In this document: piece after piece, positions 39,803 through 50,261 of the stretch
Numbering within the stretch: position 1 is the stretch's first letter
How the letters are laid out: the number at the start of each line of letters is the position of its first letter
Assembly (NCBI GenBank): GCA_029262155.1
Contig: JAJCZW010000195.1
Location: 1 to 50,791 of the forward strand
Direction: 5' to 3'
From: Gemmatimonadota bacterium
GTDB lineage: Bacteria > Gemmatimonadota > Gemmatimonadetes > Gemmatimonadales > GWC2-71-9
Length of the DNA: 50,791 nt
Translations under genes and position numbers: made by a program
The notes under the pieces: model-generated
What the model was told of the DNA's origin: nothing
Databases searched by the model: none
Seen by the model: only the letters and a program-made list of their open reading frames with translations

Positions 39803-40825
39803 CTACTCTGGATGCTTCCGGAAGATGTCCTCCAATACCACCCGATCGATCTTGCCGTCCATCCGTACTCGCACGTCGTAGTTTTCCCAGTACATGAAGT
39901 TCTTGAGGGCCGCAAGGAAGGTGGGGTTGGCAGTGCCCTGCGATGCTCCAAGCCACTTGTCGGGCTGGCCCTCCGGCTCCCGAAGGAGGATCGGCTCCAA
40001 TCGTGCAACCAGTGCGGGCGTGAGATCCAAGAGATCTTTCGGATCGCTCGGGAAGAAGTACAGTTTGTGGAGCGTGAGAAGCCGGTCGAGTTCGGCAATA
40101 GGATCGACCGCATCATAGACGCGGAGATCGATGAACCGATCGTTCGCCCCCAGGTAACCACCGCCAGCCCGTACCACGAGCAACGCGGCTGACTCCATAC
40201 CCCGCTTGTCCCCACCTCCCGCCTGACCCGCCTTCAGGGCCGCCAGCAACCTGTCCGCAAGTGGTCCCTCGGATGCCAGGAAGGAGGACGCCATGTTCGC
40301 CACAGTCTGGTCCGATACCATGATATTCGCCTGGACGGCAAACCCGCGACCCTGGATGGCAGCTCCCTTCCCGCCCAAGATGGAGCCGCCATGCCCATCA
40401 CCGACCCGTCCGCCGGCCCAGTCAAACGTGGTCGTGCCGGTAAAACTGGCGGCACCCCCATGCGAATCGACCAAGCCCACCTGACGGTCCGATAGCGACG
40501 TATCGCTCCGCATGATGATAGCGAGCGCTTCCGCCGCCGTCGCTCCTTCCGCGATCAACGTGAGGCCACGGTCACCGTACTCGGTGTTTGCGAGGCTCTG
40601 GGTGGCGACAGCCCCTATCCCGGCTTTGGCCCATGGAACAATGCCACCCACGTTGGGGAACTTCGACTGCACGGCCACACCGAGGTCACCGGTCACTGAA
40701 TCGAACGCGACGATGCTGTAGGTATGGGCGAGACGGTGGAAGTGTCCCGGCGGAGTCATCGGTTGCTGGGCGGCAAGAACGTTCGCCACGAGTAGACCGA
40801 AAGTTGGGATCAGCAGGCGCGGCAT
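39803..40825 (-). CDS. Secreted DUF1028 Ntn-hydrolase-like protein
   Basis: A 340-aa protein with a signal peptide (LLIPTFGLLVANVLAAQ). The DUF1028 domain is clear: HTYSIVAFDSVTGDLGVAVQSK, VGGIVPWAKAGIGAVATQS, YGDRGLTLIAEGATAAEAL and QGRGFAVQANIM. A C-terminal extension (about 245-340) resembles the peptidoglycan-binding-like tail seen in longer family members. The fold is Ntn-hydrolase-like, and the substrate is unknown. GGAG 5 bases before the start. Divergent from the C39 protease gene over 205 bp. Confidence 0.9.
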   Translation of the reverse strand: MPRLLIPTFGLLVANVLAAQQPMTPPGHFHRLAHTYSIVAFDSVTGDLGVAVQSKFPNVGGIVPWAKAGIGAVATQSLANTEYGDRGLTLIAEGATAAEALAIIMRSDTSLSDRQVGLVDSHGGAASFTGTTTFDWAGGRVGDGHGGSILGGKGAAIQGRGFAVQANIMVSDQTVANMASSFLASEGPLADRLLAALKAGQAGGGDKRGMESAALLVVRAGGGYLGANDRFIDLRVYDAVDPIAELDRLLTLHKLYFFPSDPKDLLDLTPALVARLEPILLREPEGQPDKWLGASQGTANPTFLAALKNFMYWENYDVRVRMDGKIDRVVLEDIFRKHPE

Positions 40826-41030: not shown

Positions 41031-41687
41031 ATGCCACAATTTCATACCCGTTCGACCTACCGACTGGCCCGCGTCGTGGTAGGGGTCCTTCCCGCCATCC
41101 TCCTCAGCCTCGGAGCACTCCGCCCAACGCCCCTCGCAGTGAGCCTGTCCCAAGCTGCGGCTCGCGTGCTCCCCGCCCCATCCGGATCCCGCGTCCTCCC
41201 AGCTGGGGAGATGGTCTGGCAGCGCTCATTGAACGACTGCGGGCCGGCATCGCTGGCAAACTACCTCCGTGCGAACGGCGCCGGGGGCAGCCACCTGCCG
41301 CCGGTACCGGATCTCGATTCTCTCGATCGTCTTGCGATCCTCACACCGACCGGGACTCGGTTGGGAGACCTTGCCGACGCCGCGACGAAAGCTGGCTGGC
41401 CGAGCTGGGTAGCGCGGGTTGATCCAACGGAGGGAGCTGCCTCGCTACGCGGCGACCGGTTGCCAGCCATTGCCTGGATCGAGCAATCTCACTTTGTGAC
41501 CCTGACGCGCCTAGTGGCCGGGGACTCCGTCGAAATGATCGACCCGATGCGCGGGCGCTTGCTGGTGTCATGGAATGGGTTGTTGGCGGTTTGGCGAGGC
41601 GAGTTCTTGAACCGAGAACGACCCCCTGCCGCTGCCTCCGCACGTTTCTTGTTTCCCTCTTCCCCTTTACCCAGGAGTCATTCATGA
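41031..41687 (+). CDS. Stand-alone C39-type cysteine protease, membrane or envelope
   Basis: A 218-aa protein with an N-terminal hydrophobic segment (about 13-30) acting as signal or anchor. The C39 (bacteriocin-processing) core follows: oxyanion Gln64 and nucleophile Cys70 in QRSLNDCGPASLANYL, GTRLGDLADAATKAGW, His154 in QSHFVTL and Asp171 in MIDPMRG. It is not fused to an ABC transporter, unlike double-glycine leader peptidases such as LagD, and its signal places the active site outside the cytoplasm. It overlaps peptide 1 by 4 bases, so it is probably that peptide's processing enzyme. Substrate cleavage is inferred. Confidence 0.88.
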   Translation: MPQFHTRSTYRLARVVVGVLPAILLSLGALRPTPLAVSLSQAAARVLPAPSGSRVLPAGEMVWQRSLNDCGPASLANYLRANGAGGSHLPPVPDLDSLDRLAILTPTGTRLGDLADAATKAGWPSWVARVDPTEGAASLRGDRLPAIAWIEQSHFVTLTRLVAGDSVEMIDPMRGRLLVSWNGLLAVWRGEFLNRERPPAAASARFLFPSSPLPRSHS

Positions 41688-41965
41688 GGACTGTCCATCA
41701 CTTCGGCCTCGCGTTCCTGTTGGCACTCAGCATTGCGAGCCTCCCGGTAACGACCACCGCAGCGACAGAACGCACCCCAACCCCTCAGGCGGTTCAAGTC
41801 GAGGGCCGGGGACTCCTCAGCATCATTGGATGCGTGGGATGCGTGGCAGGAGGCTTGGCGATTGCAATGAATGGTGCGGCCGCTCTCCTCGCCGCTGCAT
41901 TCTCCGAAGGATCTGCCCTCGCCGTGGCCGGTTGCATTGCCATCTGCGCCGATGCCATAGGCTGA
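41684..41965 (+). CDS. Secreted four-cysteine hydrophobic peptide precursor 1 (bacteriocin-like)
   Basis: A 93-aa precursor. A Sec-type signal (FGLAFLLALSIASLPVTTTA) is followed by a polar stretch to residue 40, GRG at 41-43, then a hydrophobic Gly/Ala-rich core with Cys50-x2-Cys53 and Cys84-x3-Cys88, ending in ADAIG. Cysteine spacing, GRG position (7 residues before the first Cys) and C-terminal Gly match peptide 2. AGGAG 7 bases upstream; overlaps the C39 stop. It is likely matured at or near GRG and held by two disulphides. Role as antimicrobial or signal is inferred. Confidence 0.82.
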   Translation: MRTVHHFGLAFLLALSIASLPVTTTAATERTPTPQAVQVEGRGLLSIIGCVGCVAGGLAIAMNGAAALLAAAFSEGSALAVAGCIAICADAIG

Positions 41966-41999
41966 TACCACCCCTACCACCTTCGGAAGGAGCAAATCG

Positions 42000-42305
42000 A
42001 TGTCTCCAAGACTGATGACTCTGCGACAGGGACTCGCCGCCCTGCTCTTCGCCTTTCCCCTCTTGGGGTTTGCGCCCCCAGCGACTGCCACAGCCGACGA
42101 CCCTTCTCCAACCGCGTCAATCGAGCAGGTGGACGCACACCAGGTCATCGGACGCGGGATTCTGGCGAAGCTCGCGTGCATTGCCTGCCTCGCGGGACTC
42201 TTGTCTGTGGCAGGGTTTACGGTGGGTGGCATTCTGATCACAGCACTTGCCTATCCCGAAGTCACCGCACTTTGCGGATTGGGATGCGCCGTTGCATTTG
42301 GTTGA
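42000..42305 (+). CDS. Secreted four-cysteine hydrophobic peptide precursor 2 (bacteriocin-like)
   Basis: A 101-aa precursor paralogous to peptide 1. It has a signal peptide (GLAALLFAFPLLGFAPPATA), polar pro-region, GRG at 51-53, Cys60-x2-Cys63, hydrophobic core, Cys92-x3-Cys96 and C-terminal AVAFG. The two cores share GRG-[LI]-L and C-[VI]-[GA]-C-[VL]-A-G. GGAAGGAG lies 6-7 bases before the start. Located 34 bp after peptide 1. Two related peptides side by side suggest a two-peptide product or a duplicated precursor. Confidence 0.8.
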   Translation: MSPRLMTLRQGLAALLFAFPLLGFAPPATATADDPSPTASIEQVDAHQVIGRGILAKLACIACLAGLLSVAGFTVGGILITALAYPEVTALCGLGCAVAFG

Positions 42306-42326
42306 GCCGTCTCCGAGTGGCAAAGG

Positions 42327-42350
42327 CCCTCTCCCAGGCGAGGGGGAGGG
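42327..42350 (+). promoter_or_regulatory. Hairpin covering the ribosome site of the thioredoxin-like gene
   Basis: CCCTCTCCC pairs with GGGGGAGGG (one G-U) around the loop AGGCGA. The right arm is the only strong Shine-Dalgarno before the ATG at 42355, so the RNA stem would hide it. No U-run follows, which argues against a terminator. It sits just after the second peptide and could lower translation of downstream genes relative to the precursors. Confidence 0.55.
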
Positions 42351-42354
42351 TCCG

Positions 42355-42903
42355 ATGCTCGCACCACCGTCGATGTCGTCCGGGACGCGTTGGAAGGCAG
42401 GAGGTTTGCTCGGCGGATGTGGGCTCCTGGCGCTCTGGATCGCGCATGGGGTAGCCACCTCAAGGCTTGAGAAGATCGTCACACCATTTCCGGCCCACAA
42501 TCTCCGCGGTCAGCTGCCGAGTGGCGCCTCGTGGACCGGTGGAAGCGGTGGGGCGGAGATCCTCCTCTATGTCGATCAACACTGCGCCTACTGCAAAGAA
42601 GAGCTGCACGCCTGGTCGACCTCACTCGCGTTGACCTCAAGGACGCCAGCCCCTCGCGTCGTCTTGTCCCCACGCTCGGATACCCAGCACGACTCCTACC
42701 TTCCCTCTCGGTTTCGAGGAATGTGGATCCACGACCGTGACACCGTCATCGCTCGGGCGCTAGCCCTCAGAGGGGTCCCGACAACGGTCGTGATCATCGA
42801 TAACCGTGTGACCGCAATACGATCGGGCCTCACGTCGGCAGCAGCAAAAGACAGCCTGCTCCAGATCGTCAGCGTCTCGGGGCCGGCCGGAGGAGAGCTG
42901 TGA
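42355..42903 (+). CDS. Membrane-anchored thioredoxin-like protein of the peptide locus
   Basis: A 182-aa protein with a TM anchor (about 16-31: GGLLGGCGLLALWIA) and a thioredoxin-like fold outside. The active-site-like pair is Cys77-x2-Cys80 in LLYVDQHCAYCKEEL, with the cis-Pro in ALRGVPTTVVII. A DsbC/DsbE-like role is likely: making or shuffling the disulphides of the neighbouring four-cysteine peptides. The start at 42355 is set by GGGGGAGGG 4 bases upstream; the in-frame extension to 42247 lies in peptide 2. Its stop overlaps the next gene by 4 bases. Confidence 0.8.
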   Translation: MLAPPSMSSGTRWKAGGLLGGCGLLALWIAHGVATSRLEKIVTPFPAHNLRGQLPSGASWTGGSGGAEILLYVDQHCAYCKEELHAWSTSLALTSRTPAPRVVLSPRSDTQHDSYLPSRFRGMWIHDRDTVIARALALRGVPTTVVIIDNRVTAIRSGLTSAAAKDSLLQIVSVSGPAGGEL

Positions 42904-43574
42904 GTCCACCATTCAATACCACGAACGTCCGAAGGAGCAACCGGCTGGCTCACCAGCTTCAACTCTGTATTCCTACGATGAAAGAGATCGCGGTGGAACG
43001 CCCTTTAATCCCACCCATCCTGGTCGCGACGATCCTCGCACTGGGTGCGGCAGGTACGCTGGCGCCTCTGCTCCCATTGGCTTTCCGGAATTCCTCGCCC
43101 GCGCTGGCGGTCTCACTTCGTCAGTGGCTCTGGATCATCGGATTCCTCACTCCCCTCATTGTGGTGCTCAAAGGGACACTCTCTACCGGGCTCGCCTGGG
43201 GATGGCTGACCCTGAACGGCGTACCGGTCGCCCCACGCGCCCTCTTTTCCATCCTCTTTTATGGAGAGGCAGTGCTTGGCTTGCAAGGTGCCGTTATCGG
43301 GGCAGCACTCCGGTTTCTGGGGACGGCACGACTTCGCACACCAGCCGACCTTTTCCTGCCAACCGGAGCCGATCTCTTTGGCTTGCCCCATCACCCGTTG
43401 GCCCACGCCGTGGTTCAGCATCTCTCCATCTTTCATGTAGCATGGTTCACACTCCTGCTCGTCGGTCTGCCGGCTCTCACCACGTGCTCCCGACGCGTCG
43501 CAGGAAGCACTGCGCTCTTCCTCTGGACGGTATCGGTAGGAATAGATGCGGTGCGCGCGTGGGGACAGGTATGA
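42900..43574 (+). CDS. Polytopic membrane protein of the peptide locus
   Basis: A 224-aa protein with about five TM helices (about 37-60, 73-92, 110-135, 170-190, 195-215). I do not recognise the family with confidence; the arrangement is compatible with a Yip1-like membrane domain. The start is GTG with GGAGGAG about 3-9 bases upstream, overlapping the thioredoxin-like stop; its stop overlaps the ABC ATPase start. It could be an immunity or export component. Confidence 0.75.
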   Translation: MSPPFNTTNVRRSNRLAHQLQLCIPTMKEIAVERPLIPPILVATILALGAAGTLAPLLPLAFRNSSPALAVSLRQWLWIIGFLTPLIVVLKGTLSTGLAWGWLTLNGVPVAPRALFSILFYGEAVLGLQGAVIGAALRFLGTARLRTPADLFLPTGADLFGLPHHPLAHAVVQHLSIFHVAWFTLLLVGLPALTTCSRRVAGSTALFLWTVSVGIDAVRAWGQV

Positions 43575-44293
43575 CCGAAGCCGTCGCAGTGACCGATCTC
43601 GCGGTCCGCTACCCAGGCTTCACATTGCAGCCAGTTTCGCTCCGCATGGACCTCGGCGAGCGCGTCGCCCTCCTGGGGGCCAATGGATCTGGCAAGACAA
43701 CACTCCTCAACGCCATTGCAGGACGACGACCCGGGCATGGTGGGCAGATGCAGATCGTAGGACACCCACCCAACCCACCACCGTGGACTCTGAGCCAGTC
43801 GATCGGGTTCCTCGGCGACCATCTCCTCGGACTCGGATGGATGACCGTCGCAGAACATTTGCAATTCCTTCGTCCATTCTACCCCCGGTGGGACAGCGCA
43901 TATGTCGAGGAGCTGGTCGACCGACTTCAGATTCCTTGGCACACAAAGCTCGGCCATCTCTCGCGCGGGATGACGGTCAAACTTGGATTTGTCAGTGCGG
44001 AAGCCTTTCGCCCCCCGGTCCTTCTCATGGATGAACCAACGGCAGGCCTTGATCCGGTCGTCCGCAATGAACTCCTGGACGTCTTAGACAGTGCCTGCGG
44101 TCTTGGGCCTCGACTCGTCCTATTCTCAACCCATCTCCTCGAAGACGTGGAAACACTTGGAACACGGGTCATAGTCCTCCATGAGGGCCACGTTGTTATC
44201 GATCGATCGGTCGACGAGATCCAAGCCGATTCACATCAACCTTTTCACACCATTCTTCGGGGGCTCGTAACACTCCATGGACACGCGGCATAG
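43571..44293 (+). CDS. ABC transporter ATP-binding protein of the peptide locus
   Basis: A 240-aa ABC ATPase: Walker A GANGSGKTT (about 38-46), signature LSRGMTVKLG, Walker B VLLMDEPTAGLDP, H-loop STHLLEDVE. This is the small BcrA/LanF-like type paired with a separate permease. Such pairs often give self-immunity or export for peptide antibiotics. It starts at the 4-base overlap with the membrane protein and overlaps the permease by 17 bases. Confidence 0.93.
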   Translation: MTEAVAVTDLAVRYPGFTLQPVSLRMDLGERVALLGANGSGKTTLLNAIAGRRPGHGGQMQIVGHPPNPPPWTLSQSIGFLGDHLLGLGWMTVAEHLQFLRPFYPRWDSAYVEELVDRLQIPWHTKLGHLSRGMTVKLGFVSAEAFRPPVLLMDEPTAGLDPVVRNELLDVLDSACGLGPRLVLFSTHLLEDVETLGTRVIVLHEGHVVIDRSVDEIQADSHQPFHTILRGLVTLHGHAA

Positions 44294-44978
44294 GGCACTT
44301 CTCGCACTGGAACTCAGGCGGACTGCCCCAGGGACGTTTCGGTTTCTCGCGGTTGTCGCGCTGATCACGTTGGTCGCAACCCTCGTCGGGCAGGCAACAC
44401 CAGATACCCTGGCTATGGTCTGGACGGGACTCACGACGGGATACGTGGTACAGCTTCCACTCGCAGCGCTGCGCGATAAGATTGAGGGTGGAATGGAATT
44501 CCTTTGTAACCTCCCCATTCCACGATCCGGCCTAGCGACCGCTCGCCTCCTCGCAGGTGGCGTCCTGGCGCTCCCGGCGGCAGCGCATCTCTTCTTGGCC
44601 GCCTGGTATGTATTCCCCCTTCTTGAACTCCACCGGGGCGCCCTGTCACTTCTTTCCATCTTCGGAATCGCGTGGATCGGGTTCGCCGCGATCATCAACA
44701 CGATGACCGCACTGATCATCCGATATCGGATCCAGGACCTCACCAGTACGCCGCTGGTGATCGCCACCCTCGGAGGATTAGGCTTCGTCATGCTTCTCGA
44801 TCGCCTCGTGCCCGACCCGCAGGCGCTGCTTAGAACGCTCCTTCACCAGTGGTGGCTCCCTCCCATGGTGGTTGGCATCCTCCTGGCTGGTTCGCTTCTC
44901 CTGCTGGCGATTGCCCGCTGGGTCATGATTCGAGGCTTTACTGGATACACACCGCGAGGTGATTCGATCAGTTGGTAA
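44277..44978 (+). CDS. ABC-2-like permease of the peptide locus
   Basis: A 233-aa membrane protein with six hydrophobic segments (about 20-40, 45-65, 85-115, 118-140, 155-175, 195-215). The first loop LPLAALRDKIEGGMEFLCNLPI is typical of ABC-2/BcrB-like permeases. It begins inside the ATPase gene and ends before a 152-bp gap that precedes the kinase gene. Function with the ATPase is export or immunity; cargo not shown. Confidence 0.85.
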   Translation: MDTRHRALLALELRRTAPGTFRFLAVVALITLVATLVGQATPDTLAMVWTGLTTGYVVQLPLAALRDKIEGGMEFLCNLPIPRSGLATARLLAGGVLALPAAAHLFLAAWYVFPLLELHRGALSLLSIFGIAWIGFAAIINTMTALIIRYRIQDLTSTPLVIATLGGLGFVMLLDRLVPDPQALLRTLLHQWWLPPMVVGILLAGSLLLLAIARWVMIRGFTGYTPRGDSISW

Positions 44979-45130
44979 TCCCGTTCCATTGGGACAAGGG
45001 ACGGTGTGGAGGGACAGCCCGAGGAGGGGTGGGTCGAGATCTCCAAGACCGGGCAGGCGGCACCATTGAGTTTGCTGGGGCCTCACTGTTCCTCTAGACT
45101 TCAGATCACGATCCAACTTCCGGAGTCTGG

Positions 45131-46285
45131 ATGTCACCCCTCGATCCCTCGGCCAAGCCGATTCGGTACTGGCAGCGCCGTGGGACCCTGATCGCAGCTC
45201 TCTATCTCGCGGTGATGCTGGCCATCATTGAGGTGGGGCAAGTGTACTTCCGCTCCGCCCTAGAGGACTGGCCGATCTCGATCGGGGAAGCGGCTGTCCG
45301 AACGGTCGCATCCTGGATCTTGATCGGAGCCTTGCTCCCGCTCGTCCTCCTCATGGCAGAGCGACTTCCCTTGGCCCGCGGCGAACGGGTACGAGCCACC
45401 AGCATCCACATGGGTGTCTCAATCCTTTTTGGCCTCATTCATCTCAGTGGGATGGGCGTTGTGATCTGGCTCCAAGGCCACCAGGATCATCCCTTCACGG
45501 ACAATCTGGCATGGCTGCTCTCGGCGTACCTTGGCCTCGACATGTTGATCTACTGGGCCATCATCGGCGTGTCCCACACAGTTCGGTTCTATCATGAAGC
45601 ACGGGCACACTCGGTCAAAGCCGCTCGACTCGAGGTCAGCCTGAGTGAGGCACGATTGCGGGCGTTGCGAGCACAATTGAACCCACATTTTCTCTTTAAC
45701 ACGCTGAATGCCGTGAGTGGATTGGCCATTCGACATGGAGACGAGGACACTGCCGACGCACTCGGCCAGGTCAGCGAACTGATGCGATCGGCGATGGATG
45801 ACGATCGGGATCAGGAGATCACCCTTTCGGCCGAGCTCGACTTCACGACACGGTACCTCAACTTGCAACATCTCCGCTTTTCGGACCGGCTCTCGGTCGA
45901 TGTACAGGTCGGCGACGGGCTCGAAACAACGTTGGTTCCGGCCCTTCTGTTGCAACCACTCGTCGAGAATGCCCTCCTACACGGTATTGCGAATCATCCC
46001 GGCCCGGGGCGGGTGGCCATTACCGCCAGAGCCGTGGAAGGAGATAGGCTGCGAATTGAGGTCGAAGACTCGGGCCCAGGATTTGGTCCAGCAGCGTCGC
46101 GACGACCCGGCATCGGCATCGGGCTACGCAATACCCAGACGAGGCTGGCCCTGCTCTATCCCGATCAGCACTTTTTTGCCATCGGTTCCGCTCCCTCGGG
46201 AGGCGGCTTAGTCACCATTGACATCCCACTCAAGCACCAGCACGAGACCGATCCCGCTCGGCAGGCGGTGAGCCATGGGCCCTGA
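45131..46285 (+). CDS. LytS-type sensor histidine kinase (His_kinase PF06580)
   Basis: A 384-aa membrane kinase. Four TM helices lie at about 18-36, 58-76, 92-113 and 125-147, with only short loops. The transmitter has the family signature ALRAQLNPHFLFNTLNAV with phospho-acceptor His186, then LLLQPLVENALLHG and DSGPGFG in the HATPase domain. This class pairs with LytTR regulators and includes peptide-sensing kinases such as AgrC-like ones. The stop overlaps the LytTR gene start by 11 bases. No large sensor domain is present, so a membrane or peptide signal is plausible. Confidence 0.93.
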   Translation: MSPLDPSAKPIRYWQRRGTLIAALYLAVMLAIIEVGQVYFRSALEDWPISIGEAAVRTVASWILIGALLPLVLLMAERLPLARGERVRATSIHMGVSILFGLIHLSGMGVVIWLQGHQDHPFTDNLAWLLSAYLGLDMLIYWAIIGVSHTVRFYHEARAHSVKAARLEVSLSEARLRALRAQLNPHFLFNTLNAVSGLAIRHGDEDTADALGQVSELMRSAMDDDRDQEITLSAELDFTTRYLNLQHLRFSDRLSVDVQVGDGLETTLVPALLLQPLVENALLHGIANHPGPGRVAITARAVEGDRLRIEVEDSGPGFGPAASRRPGIGIGLRNTQTRLALLYPDQHFFAIGSAPSGGGLVTIDIPLKHQHETDPARQAVSHGP

Positions 46286-47099
46286 CGGCATTCGAACGCT
46301 AATCGCAGACGATGAACCGCTGGCCCGGGAGGGCCTCAAGGCACGGCTGGCGCGGGAGCCCGATATCAATATCGTCGGAGAGACGAAAGATGGCCCGGAG
46401 ACGGTCGCCGCCATCCGGTCACTCCAGCCTGACCTCGTCTTGCTCGATATTCAGATGCCCGGTATGAATGGCTTCGACGTCCTCGGCGCACTCGGCGATG
46501 ATCCGATGCCGATTGTGGTCTTTGTTACCGCGTTCGACCAGTTTGCCCTTCGCGCCTTTGACGCGCATGCCGAGGACTATCTCCTCAAACCCTTCACCGC
46601 AACGCGACTCCAGGAAGCGCTCTCCCGCGTCCGTCGCGAAATCGCCCGTGCAGAGACTCTGGCGGCGCATGACCGGTTCGCTGGACTTCTCGATACTTAT
46701 CGTTCAGAGGTGACGCGGGCCGGAGTGACCGGGGCACCAGCCACCGACACCCCCGAGAGCCCTCCCACTGGCCCCCATTCTTGGACGGCCCGCTTCACCG
46801 TCAAAGATAGCGAACGCTTTCTGATCATCCCGGTTGAGAGTGTCGATTGGATTGAGGCAGCGGGAAACTATGCCGTATTGCACACTTCAGGGGGAGCCTA
46901 CAAGATCCGCGATACGATGACTCACCTTGCGAAGGCGCTCAACCCCTTGCATTTCGCTCGAATCCATCGTTCGGCAATCGTTCAGATCAGCAAAGTCAAA
47001 GAGATCCGCCCGGAGTGGCACGGGGATTTCGATGTCGAATTGATCACGGGAACGATTGTACGGATGAGTCGTCACTACCGCGAGCGGCTGCTTACGTAG
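46275..47099 (+). CDS. LytTR-family response regulator
   Basis: A 274-aa regulator. The receiver (about 6-120) has Asp58 in LLDIQMPGMNG and Lys in YLLKPFTATRL. The LytTR DNA-binding domain (about 168-274) shows SVDWIEAAGNYAVLHTSGG, LNPLHFARIHRSAIVQISKV and VRMSRHYRERLL. LytTR domains bind paired imperfect direct repeats, often upstream of virulence or bacteriocin genes. It is co-transcribed with the kinase. Whether it controls the peptide genes just upstream is inferred from position. Confidence 0.95.
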   Translation: MGPDGIRTLIADDEPLAREGLKARLAREPDINIVGETKDGPETVAAIRSLQPDLVLLDIQMPGMNGFDVLGALGDDPMPIVVFVTAFDQFALRAFDAHAEDYLLKPFTATRLQEALSRVRREIARAETLAAHDRFAGLLDTYRSEVTRAGVTGAPATDTPESPPTGPHSWTARFTVKDSERFLIIPVESVDWIEAAGNYAVLHTSGGAYKIRDTMTHLAKALNPLHFARIHRSAIVQISKVKEIRPEWHGDFDVELITGTIVRMSRHYRERLLT

Positions 47100-47643: not shown

Positions 47644-48222
47644 TCAGTCCACGACCTCAGACAGCGCTCGCTCCAGCCGAGCTTGGTCCTCTGCGCTGAC
47701 GTTCGCGGCGCCAGTCAGGACCGGGGCCGGAACGGGAGCAGCCGCTTGTCGCCGCATCAAGATGGCCGCGAGGAGGGTACCTGCGGCGGTGATGGCAAGC
47801 CCAGGCACGAGATATCCGGCAAGGTTGAATCCCTCGGGCGGGGGAGCCATGAGGATCTCCTCTCCGTATTCAGTCACAAACGCATCGATGATCTGGTCCG
47901 GTGTCGCTCCATTCTCGTGGAGGGCCACCACCTGCCGATGCAGCGCCGGAGAGACGGTACATGTGAAGTCGGTCGTGCGGCAGGTGAAGATGTCGAGATT
48001 GCAGCCGCAAGTACACTTCAGTTTGTGTTCGACTGTTTGAATGATTCCGTTGTTATCTCCCTCGACCACCGCGGGGCGGGACTGCACGGCCTCCGGGATA
48101 CTGAGACGGTCCGCCGGGGCCTCGGGGTCGCCGCCGGGCGATCCTTGCGTCGCTGCGTGGAGGGCTCGCCCGCCAACCAGCAGGGCACTGATACTTGTGA
48201 AAAAGGAACGTCGAGAAATCAT
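47644..48222 (-). CDS. ccmH: Cytochrome c maturation protein CcmH
   Basis: A 192-aa protein. The twin-arginine-like start SRRSFFTSISALLVGG suggests Tat export. The redox motif appears as LKCTCGCNLDIFTC, the C-x-C-G-C-N variant of the CcmH LRCxxC motif, with further cysteines in CRTTDFTC. The helical bundle GATPDQIIDAFVTEYGEEILMAPP is the family hallmark, followed by a C-terminal TM helix (about 135-158). CcmH reduces apocytochrome cysteines before haem attachment. Its start overlaps the ccmF stop by 4 bases. A separate CcmG is not seen. Confidence 0.9.
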   Translation of the reverse strand: MISRRSFFTSISALLVGGRALHAATQGSPGGDPEAPADRLSIPEAVQSRPAVVEGDNNGIIQTVEHKLKCTCGCNLDIFTCRTTDFTCTVSPALHRQVVALHENGATPDQIIDAFVTEYGEEILMAPPPEGFNLAGYLVPGLAITAAGTLLAAILMRRQAAAPVPAPVLTGAANVSAEDQARLERALSEVVD

Positions 48223-50261
48223 ACCGGTACCGCCTCCTCCACCGCAGGTTCAACCGTTGCACCCTGCGTGCGCGTGAGCCCCGACCGAACCGCAGTTCGG
48301 CCTCCACCGGGCCACATGGTTATTAACCCACCAAGCACCAACACCCCACCACCAAACCACAGCCACCACACCAGTGGGTTCACTGTGACGGCATAGTTGG
48401 CTCGCTCTGTCCCACCGATGGATCCGGCGTACACCACGTAGAGATCTTCACGAAGCGTACTGCGAATCCCGACTTCTGTAGACGGCTCAAAGGTCTTGCG
48501 GTTAAAGCTGTCCACATGTTGACGCTTCTCAGAGGAGACGATCCCGGCGGCCTTTCCATCGATCTCCACCTGCAGTGTCGCCGCGGAGACAATCCGATTA
48601 AGCGCCGTGTACTGCGACACGCCGAGATGCGTCAATCGATACACGTGCCCAAAGGGGCTCCGGATTTCCGTAAACTCGCCCGGTGCGAGCGTGGCCTCTT
48701 GGGTAATCTTGAAGCTTGAGCCAACGAACGCCGCGAAATAAATCAGGATACCGGCATGCACGAGGTATCCCCCGTAGCGTCGACGATTCCGATTGATCAG
48801 CAAGCCCAAGGCAACCGGGAAGGATTCCCCGTGCATCCGAATCCGTGCGCGTACACCGCGATAAAACTCCTGCAGAATGGTGCCTGCTACGAACCCAATC
48901 AGACCCAGGGCCAGCACGGCTGAGCCTTCGCGCATTCCCATCCCAAACAACACGCTCGCCGTGACGAGTCCCAGAAGGACGGGGAAGATGAACTGACGTC
49001 TGAGGTTCGCCAGCGAACTCTTCCGCCAGGCGATCAGGGGCCCGATCCCTGTCAGCGCAAGCAAGAGCAGGCCGAGGGGGACGTTGACGCGATTAAAGAA
49101 TGGGGGCCCGACCGTGATCTTTACTCCGCGCACGGCTTCGGTCAGGATGGGGAAAAGCGTACCCCAGAGCACCGAGAAGGCGATGCCAACAAAGATCAGA
49201 TTGTTGAAGAGAAAAGCCGCTTCCCGACTCGCCACCGATTCGAGTTGTGCCTCCGGTTCCAGTTGGGGCCACCGAGTGTAGAGCAGGGTAAATCCAAAGA
49301 CACCCGCCAGCACCAGGAAGGCGAGAAAGAAATATCCTACGTTGGATTGGGCGAAACTATGGACGCTCGCAATCACACCTGATCGAGTGATGAAGGTTCC
49401 GAAGATGCTGAGCATAAAAGTCCCAAAGATCAACCCAAGATTCCAACGCTTGAGCATTCCCCGTTTCTCTTGGATCATGACGGAGTGGAGAAAGGCCGTC
49501 ATCGTCAGCCAAGGGAGAAGGCTGGCGTTCTCCACCGGATCCCATGCCCAGTAACCACCCCATCCCAGCTCGACGTAGGCCCACCACATCCCGAGGGTAA
49601 TTCCGACTGACAAGAAGAGCCACGAGAGCAACGTCCACTTGCGGATGGCGACGATCCAACCGCTATCGAGTCGGCGAGAGAGGAGAGCCGCGATGCCGAA
49701 CGCGAAGGGTATTGTGATACTGATATAACCGAGATAAAGCATCGGCGGGTGGATGACCATGCCAGGGTTCTGGAGTTGGGGATTCAGGCCATTCCCGTCC
49801 GCCGGTGTAAACCCCAGCCGGTCAAACGGGTTCGCTGCAAAGAGCATAGTGGCAACAAAAAAGACCACCACCGCTCCCGTGACCGCTGCCACGGTCGGCA
49901 TGAGTTCCTTGTGCCGTCGACTTGTCAGCGCCTGGGCCAGCGCCGCAAACACCGACAGCACCGTCGCCCAGAAGAGCAGGCTTCCCTTCTGACCGGCCCA
50001 GAAGGCAGTGACCACATAGGAGTCGGGGAGATTGCGAGAGGTATAGCTGGCGACGTATTCGATGTTGAAGTCGTGGGTAATGAGCCCTTGCCACAATGCG
50101 ATCGAGGCGACCAGCAACGCGGCACAGGTTGCGTACACCGAACGGATCGTGCTGGAGGCAAGCTCGGGCCGTGTCCGCCATGCTCCGGAAAAACCAACCA
50201 CGGCTCCCCAGAGCCCTGCCAACAACGCCATCCATAACGCGAACTCCCCGAGCAAGGTCAT
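48219..50261 (-). CDS. ccmF: Cytochrome c haem lyase subunit CcmF
   Basis: A 680-aa polytopic protein with about 14-15 TM segments. The tryptophan-rich WWD domain is visible as WGGYWAWDPVENASLLPWL, and haem-ligand histidines lie in flanking loops (for example HPPMLYLGY and LITHDFNIEYV). A periplasmic domain before the last TM helix contains PFGHVYRLTHLGVSQY. It transfers haem from CcmE to apocytochrome c with CcmH. It starts 3 bp after ccmE and overlaps ccmH by 4 bases. It should serve the cbb3 haem c subunits in this window. Confidence 0.97.
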   Translation of the reverse strand: MTLLGEFALWMALLAGLWGAVVGFSGAWRTRPELASSTIRSVYATCAALLVASIALWQGLITHDFNIEYVASYTSRNLPDSYVVTAFWAGQKGSLLFWATVLSVFAALAQALTSRRHKELMPTVAAVTGAVVVFFVATMLFAANPFDRLGFTPADGNGLNPQLQNPGMVIHPPMLYLGYISITIPFAFGIAALLSRRLDSGWIVAIRKWTLLSWLFLSVGITLGMWWAYVELGWGGYWAWDPVENASLLPWLTMTAFLHSVMIQEKRGMLKRWNLGLIFGTFMLSIFGTFITRSGVIASVHSFAQSNVGYFFLAFLVLAGVFGFTLLYTRWPQLEPEAQLESVASREAAFLFNNLIFVGIAFSVLWGTLFPILTEAVRGVKITVGPPFFNRVNVPLGLLLLALTGIGPLIAWRKSSLANLRRQFIFPVLLGLVTASVLFGMGMREGSAVLALGLIGFVAGTILQEFYRGVRARIRMHGESFPVALGLLINRNRRRYGGYLVHAGILIYFAAFVGSSFKITQEATLAPGEFTEIRSPFGHVYRLTHLGVSQYTALNRIVSAATLQVEIDGKAAGIVSSEKRQHVDSFNRKTFEPSTEVGIRSTLREDLYVVYAGSIGGTERANYAVTVNPLVWWLWFGGGVLVLGGLITMWPGGGRTAVRSGLTRTQGATVEPAVEEAVPV

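Follow-up and report, generated by a model that had tools for sequence, protein, structure and literature searches.

Most of what is known about C39 proteases concerns peptide exporters, whose cytoplasmic cutting domain they form. Among peptide toxin systems, the Skf and sublancin clusters carry thioredoxin-like and ABC (ATP-binding cassette) genes beside the toxin gene, with modification by radical SAM or glycosyltransferase enzymes and no Sec/C39 combination, and SdpC is exported through Sec in a system that is not known to include a C39. The same trio of peptide, thioredoxin-like and ABC genes as in Skf and sublancin is found, together with a C39 gene, in a 50,791-nucleotide stretch of DNA from a Gemmatimonadota bacterium (contig JAJCZW010000195.1; hereafter the window). 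This cassette of seven genes is conserved in the phylum, its catalytic residues are intact, its precursors share one architecture and are linked exclusively to the protease, and it is gained or lost as a block. The reading that we favour, with some reserve, is a Sec-exported two-peptide bacteriocin-like system with periplasmic C39 maturation, thioredoxin-like thiol chemistry and self-protection by the Yip1 and ABC proteins.

Several described systems come close in one part or another. Gallocin A is a two-peptide, disulphide-bonded bacteriocin, modelled as helical hairpins, that needs a thioredoxin-like helper for activity and whose double-glycine leader is cut by the ABC transporter BlpAB (PMC10100652). 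In Bacillus, YknWXYZ, a Yip1 protein (YknW) with an ABC pump, gives resistance to the short disulphide-bonded toxin SDP (PMC4887032), and clusters for leaderless and for circular bacteriocins also contain Yip1 proteins (PMC11580447). FapD of Pseudomonas is a stand-alone C39 protease with a Sec signal that is active in the periplasm; its substrate is not known, and its authors regard the class as uncharacterised and possibly using another recognition sequence (PMC5557850). It is the sole studied periplasmic C39 found in the literature searched. The genes of the cassette and the two candidate processing sites are as follows.

41031..41687, + strand: stand-alone, signal-anchored C39 peptidase, catalytic domain predicted periplasmic (PF03412, conserved catalytic residues, N-terminal transmembrane segment)
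41684..41965, + strand: pepA precursor, with Sec signal, disordered spacer, VEGR/G site and hydrophobic four-cysteine core of about 50 residues
41798..41812, + strand: candidate C39 processing motif of pepA, V-E-G-R-G, residues 39-43 (invariant G41, motif statistics)
42000..42305, + strand: pepB precursor, architecture as pepA
42144..42158, + strand: candidate C39 processing motif of pepB, V-I-G-R-G, residues 49-53 (invariant G51)
42355..42903, + strand: membrane-anchored thioredoxin-fold protein with CAYC and cis-proline VP (start supported by a Shine-Dalgarno sequence)
42900..43574, + strand: Yip1-family polytopic membrane protein (PF04893 in homologues)
43571..44293, + strand: ABC transporter ATPase (PF00005, 2e-21)
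44277..44978, + strand: polytopic ABC-type permease, final gene of the conserved block (from position and homologues; no Pfam match)

The cassette resembles gallocin A and the class IIb bacteriocins in its two adjacent small peptides, modelled helices and thioredoxin-like gene. In gallocin, however, the double-glycine leader is cytoplasmic and the ABC exporter does the processing, whereas the cassette has Sec signals and a separate anchored C39, four cysteines per peptide, a Gram-negative host and the added Yip1/ABC genes. Two different adjacent peptide genes, as in class IIb, are found at the complete loci; where class IIb peptides have a double-glycine leader, the precursors show V-x-G-x, with an invariant G, a variable next residue and a Sec-like signal before it. 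An exporting ABC transporter fused to C39 is absent, so that the cassette is bacteriocin-like and not a member of class IIb. The Yip1-family protein adjoining an ABC pair recalls SDP and YknWXYZ, but there is neither a YknX-like fusion protein nor a MacB-type permease match, and no protein of the block matched SdpA or SdpB in Pfam or NCBIfam. Like FapD, the protease stands alone, has an anchor or signal and an intact active site, and is predicted to be periplasmic; Fap serves amyloid secretion through the FapF barrel, whereas the cassette comes with dozens of candidate substrates that share a motif. Neither a FapF barrel nor amyloid-repeat subunits were found in the conserved block, and the peptide cores are without repeats. 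With PCAT1, ComA and LahT the protease shares the C39 family, the catalytic residues and candidate cleavage beside a motif that resembles Gly-Gly and has V at -4; unlike them it is unfused and predicted on the opposite side of the membrane, with only -4 and -2 conserved. The parts are known, and the combination and the Sec/C39 route are new relative to the literature searched (mostly without subscription journals), in which we found no described system with this gene set or route and no described bacteriocin for Gemmatimonadota.

Conservation of the gene block

The first-pass annotation had read 41031-47099 as nine genes with six overlapping junctions, and all nine open reading frames were recovered at the same or nearly the same coordinates. 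The overlaps number five (4, 4, 4, 17 and 11 bp), since the thioredoxin-like gene is better started at the ATG at 42355, preceded by GAGGGGGAGGG, than at the TTG at 42247 that overlapped pepB; the pepB/thioredoxin-like junction thereby becomes a 49-bp gap. Shine-Dalgarno-like sequences precede the start sites of most of the nine genes. The description of pepA and pepB as paralogues holds (35% identity, E 2.4e-5, four core cysteines each), as do the predicted Sec signals of the precursors and the freedom of the C39 from an ABC transporter fusion, and what had been called a polytopic membrane protein is one, now placed in the Yip1 family through its homologues.

A first peptide search brought up the same cassette in a different family of the order, with proteins about 20-40% identical. 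With single peptide sequences one true match within the order stood among many chance ones and profiles were required, and 395 Gemmatimonadota genomes were searched with C39 and pepA profiles. The C39 profile separates stand-alone C39 genes from C39-ABC fusions. The pepA profile matched at E<1e-5 in 20 of the 395 genomes, a set identical to that with stand-alone C39 genes, and the two genes are always adjacent; weaker matches look like chance. The order C39, precursors, thioredoxin-like, Yip1-like, ATPase, permease is the same in 18 complete loci, one of which (L090) comes from another collection and is additional to the 20. Seventeen of the 20 have the full gene set (in one the C39 is cut by the contig end), one breaks off at a contig end after its fourth peptide, and the remaining two, G044 and G062, are divergent, with a thioredoxin-like protein that, read by eye, has CxxS. 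That the order recurs in further families of the phylum, with proteins roughly 20-40% identical, implies that the arrangement is more than chance. The co-occurrence by which the first-pass annotation proposed to judge its system is thus present across Gemmatimonadota: confident precursor homologues lie only beside C39, together with the thioredoxin-like and ABC genes, and match no known membrane family. This supports its claim of a conserved peptide system with precursor, maturation, thiol and transport or immunity genes.

Presence is patchy, with the 20 genomes divided 1, 4, 13 and 2 over four families (f1, f2, f5, f7) and the window's genome the sole one of its family. Searches of that genome found one copy each of the C39 gene and the peptide pair. 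Scanning the whole collection for a 9-residue C39 word gave full cassettes only in Gemmatimonadota, in a scan which C39 proteins without the word, including the window's own, escape. In one genus the cassette is flanked by genes for a peroxiredoxin and an M28 peptidase. These two genes adjoin each other, with no cassette, in three related genomes (G174, G212, G167); another (G201) has only a C39 N-terminal remnant at the site, with different genes, two more (G171, G268) have similar weak C39 matches, and one related genome has an integrase there. Such empty sites and remnants at the same position indicate that the genes from C39 to permease come and go together as one unit, and they agree with the permease as the end of the block.

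Precursors and processing proteins

From 21 loci 65 precursors were collected. Extraction required a Sec-like signal and G-x-[GQ], so that these features are partly selected; V two positions before the G was not a criterion, and anchoring preferred V, I or L among candidates. The precursors have a charged start, a hydrophobic signal, a spacer, V-x-G-x-[G/Q] and then a core of 35-58 residues. A loose form of the motif is present in 64 of the 65, with V two positions before the G in 48 of these 64. The pattern V.G.[GQ] stands ahead of the core in 48 of 65 precursors, against 4.7 +/- 2.0 in shuffles (maximum 12 in 2000). All four-cysteine cores (58/58) have the spacing CxxC...CxxxC, and G41 of pepA and G51 of pepB are invariant among 17 and 18 homologues, respectively. 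The precursors fall into two families, A-type and B-type, with up to six precursors per locus; every complete locus has at least one of each type, except that in L077 and L078 the second peptide could not be classified. Three tandem precursors in L067 have leaders 88-93% identical and cores 38-49% identical, and a conserved leader with a variable core is what diversifying peptide products usually show. The pair L061/L063 gives a mixed picture, with leader and core both less conserved than the enzymes, the permease excepted. In the pepA model (helices 42-62, 65-72 and 77-92) the first helix starts at the motif and the spacer is poorly ordered, with a predicted local distance difference test score (pLDDT) of about 50 or less, so that the fold begins at the motif; the cysteine pairs sit on two modelled helices that could be bridged. 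No Pfam or NCBIfam family matched pepA or pepB, and searches of solved structures and folds with the peptides returned nothing usable.

The window C39 matches PF03412 at 4.5e-8 (33.4 bits, cut-off 22), and all 17 homologues compared keep Q64, C70, H154 and D171. Cassette C39 reading frames span about 200-290 residues without ABC domains, the ABC genes being separate; the closest solved relatives are C39-ABC transporters, among them PCAT1, ComA and the LahT protease domain. In 16 of 17 C39 proteins, and likewise in 16 of 17 thioredoxin-like proteins, a single hydrophobic segment preceded by positive charge stands at the N-terminus, from which a periplasmic catalytic domain is predicted; the exceptions look like wrong starts or truncated readings. 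In the thioredoxin-like family CxxC and the cis-proline VP are invariant in 17, and Thioredoxin_2 and AhpC-TSA matches are found, Thioredoxin_2 being weak for the window copy. The Yip1 assignment comes from PF04893 matches in four of 17 homologues (best 6e-6); the window copy has no PF04893 match of its own, a weak NCBIfam YknW match (0.0084) and a confident helical model (pLDDT 89). Searches of solved structures and folds with this protein gave nothing usable, perhaps since no close relative has been solved. The top NCBIfam match of the ATPase is PmtA (1e-36, under its cut-off), and a homologue of the permease occupies the same position in all complete loci.

Proposed route and rival explanations

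Judging from their signals, PepA and PepB would leave the cell interior through Sec. In the periplasm the anchored thioredoxin-like protein may make, reduce or isomerise the CxxC-CxxxC bonds, and the spacing and the model suggest that the bonded CxxC and CxxxC pairs would give a helical hairpin. The anchored C39 would trim the spacer at V-x-G-x/[G,Q], as motif, location and exclusive linkage indicate. By analogy with YknWXYZ and Pmt, the ABC pair and its Yip1 partner could clear peptide from the inner membrane and so protect the producer, and the mature peptides would most likely target the membranes of close relatives. We are largely confident in Sec export followed by periplasmic C39 processing. 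Self-protection rather than export is, by the same analogy, the probable task of the ABC and Yip1 proteins, and on balance we lean towards an antagonistic rather than a signalling or structural role, inferring a toxic activity. The cassette probably encodes a peptide weapon, so far unstudied, along with a pump that protects its producer; if so, it would be a Gram-negative, Sec-routed relative of the two-peptide disulphide bacteriocins.

A number of observations weigh against the bacteriocin-like interpretation. The thioredoxin-like protein is closest to the ResA, CcmG and DsbE types, which are mostly reductases. The cores are about neutral in charge, not cationic, confidence in the pepA model is no more than moderate (pLDDT 69), and the residue after the invariant G varies more widely (G, R, A, T, Q, S, F and others) than GG or GA. 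The hydrophobic leader positions -7 and -12 that are typical of classic C39 substrates (PMC6363468) are not conserved in the cassette precursors. To these is added the lack of an outer-membrane factor or membrane-fusion protein in the conserved block, a lack that also speaks against the ABC pair and Yip1 protein as exporter of the peptides, with the Sec-like N-termini anchoring the peptides in the membrane for transfer to it. In favour of such an exporter, ABC pairs of the Pmt type serve in export as well as in protection, and the ATPase is nearest to PmtA; the predicted periplasmic active sites of the C39 and thioredoxin-like proteins imply, however, substrates that are already across the membrane, and we consider export doubtful.

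The mature peptides could also be pheromones that follow the same route and are sensed, in the window's organism, by the kinase and regulator encoded 152 bp 3' of the permease gene on the same strand:

45131-46285, + strand: LytS-type kinase (His_kinase), outside the conserved block
46275-47099, + strand: LytTR regulator (Response_reg with LytTR), outside the conserved block

Such pairs often serve peptide quorum systems, and the first-pass annotation had taken this one as the sensing part. That assignment did not survive: across the 152-bp gap the pair is not conserved with the cassette, being absent from the neighbourhoods of the others, and its relatives occur in several copies per genome away from any cassette, the nearest in nearby genomes being at most 39% identical and not beside cassette genes. 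The pair was therefore rejected as a part of the cassette. A search for LytTR-type direct repeats 5' of the C39 gene gave one imperfect pair and nothing convincing, and in a promoter and terminator scan the signals were close to what chance gives, or below it. The number of divergent peptides, as many as six at a locus, and the gain and loss of the block suit antagonism better, and signalling appears unlikely. Quite improbable, to our mind, is a structural role in which the peptides are Fap-like fibre or membrane-associated envelope subunits and the C39 a FapD-like maturation protease. A precedent is FapD, a periplasmic C39 with Sec-exported partners (PMC5557850), but the block has no FapF-like barrel and no N/Q-rich repeats, its cores are 35-58 residues long, hydrophobic and furnished with paired cysteines, Fap has no described Yip1 or ABC gene, and the presence in 20 of 395 genomes is patchy.

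Other C39 loci and the surroundings of the cassette

The cassette may be one branch of a general "Sec-first double-glycine" pathway, in which periplasmic signal-anchored C39 proteases mature Sec-exported V-x-G-[G/x] peptides; for and against this we are evenly divided. Near eight stand-alone C39 genes outside cassettes, from Gemmatimonadota and other phyla, five precursors were found on the same strand, within 2.5 kb and with an ATG start, a Sec-like signal and V-x-G-[GASTRQ], where control loci predict about 0.5 (Poisson P 1.5e-4, an optimistic value since the rule was set after some cases had been seen). The motif of these five is V-x-G-[GR]. Two of the five lie adjacent to each other at L076 1872-3163 (- strand), in another Gemmatimonadota family, upstream of a signal-bearing C39; they have VRGG and VSGG and cationic, amphipathic, helical-looking cores, and the sequence of one, LSAAQMGEVSGG, is that of a textbook double-glycine leader, placed after a Sec signal. 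At L094 9506-11000 (Neomarinimicrobiota) an anchored C39 is followed by small Sec precursors with YDVVGG-D and YDVDGS-G, seen by eye and uncounted, the latter looking frame-shifted or short. A Halieaceae C39 locus (L108 33-335) has a Sec precursor with VRGR and a hydrophobic core of about 37 residues, with a small membrane protein between. With about 64 candidate substrates that share a motif and are physically linked to their proteases, the cassette makes the question of C39 recognition directly testable. The anchored C39, Yip1 and cysteine pairs together form a marker for finding more such systems, which would presumably go unnoticed by tools that seek C39-ABC fusions or cytoplasmic double-glycine leaders.

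The site that the peroxiredoxin and M28 peptidase genes enclose (L169, L170, L171, L172, L176) is a turnover hotspot, found empty, with the cassette, with a C39 remnant and other small secreted cysteine peptides, with an integrase, or with a different ABC pair and a secreted cysteine peptide. A Sec-exported AhpC/TSA-like peroxiredoxin gene lies directly upstream of C39 in L061, L062, L063, L064, L066, L067, L068, L070 and L074. Its active site contains an in-frame TGA (HW-TGA-P[YFW]C) with a conserved hairpin just 3', and the peroxiredoxin upstream of half the cassettes is likely a UxxC selenoprotein, which gene callers would truncate. It occurs in 85 of the 395 genomes, nearly all with TGA, and SelB was present in all eight genomes checked. 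As an obligatory redox partner it was rejected, being common in the phylum without the cassette.

Finally, the cassette and the LytTR pair of the window are flanked downstream by convergent cytochrome c maturation genes (CcmH, CcmF; 47644-50261, - strand), and a divergent gene on the other side (39803-40825, - strand) encodes a DUF1028 protein with a signal-like N-terminus.

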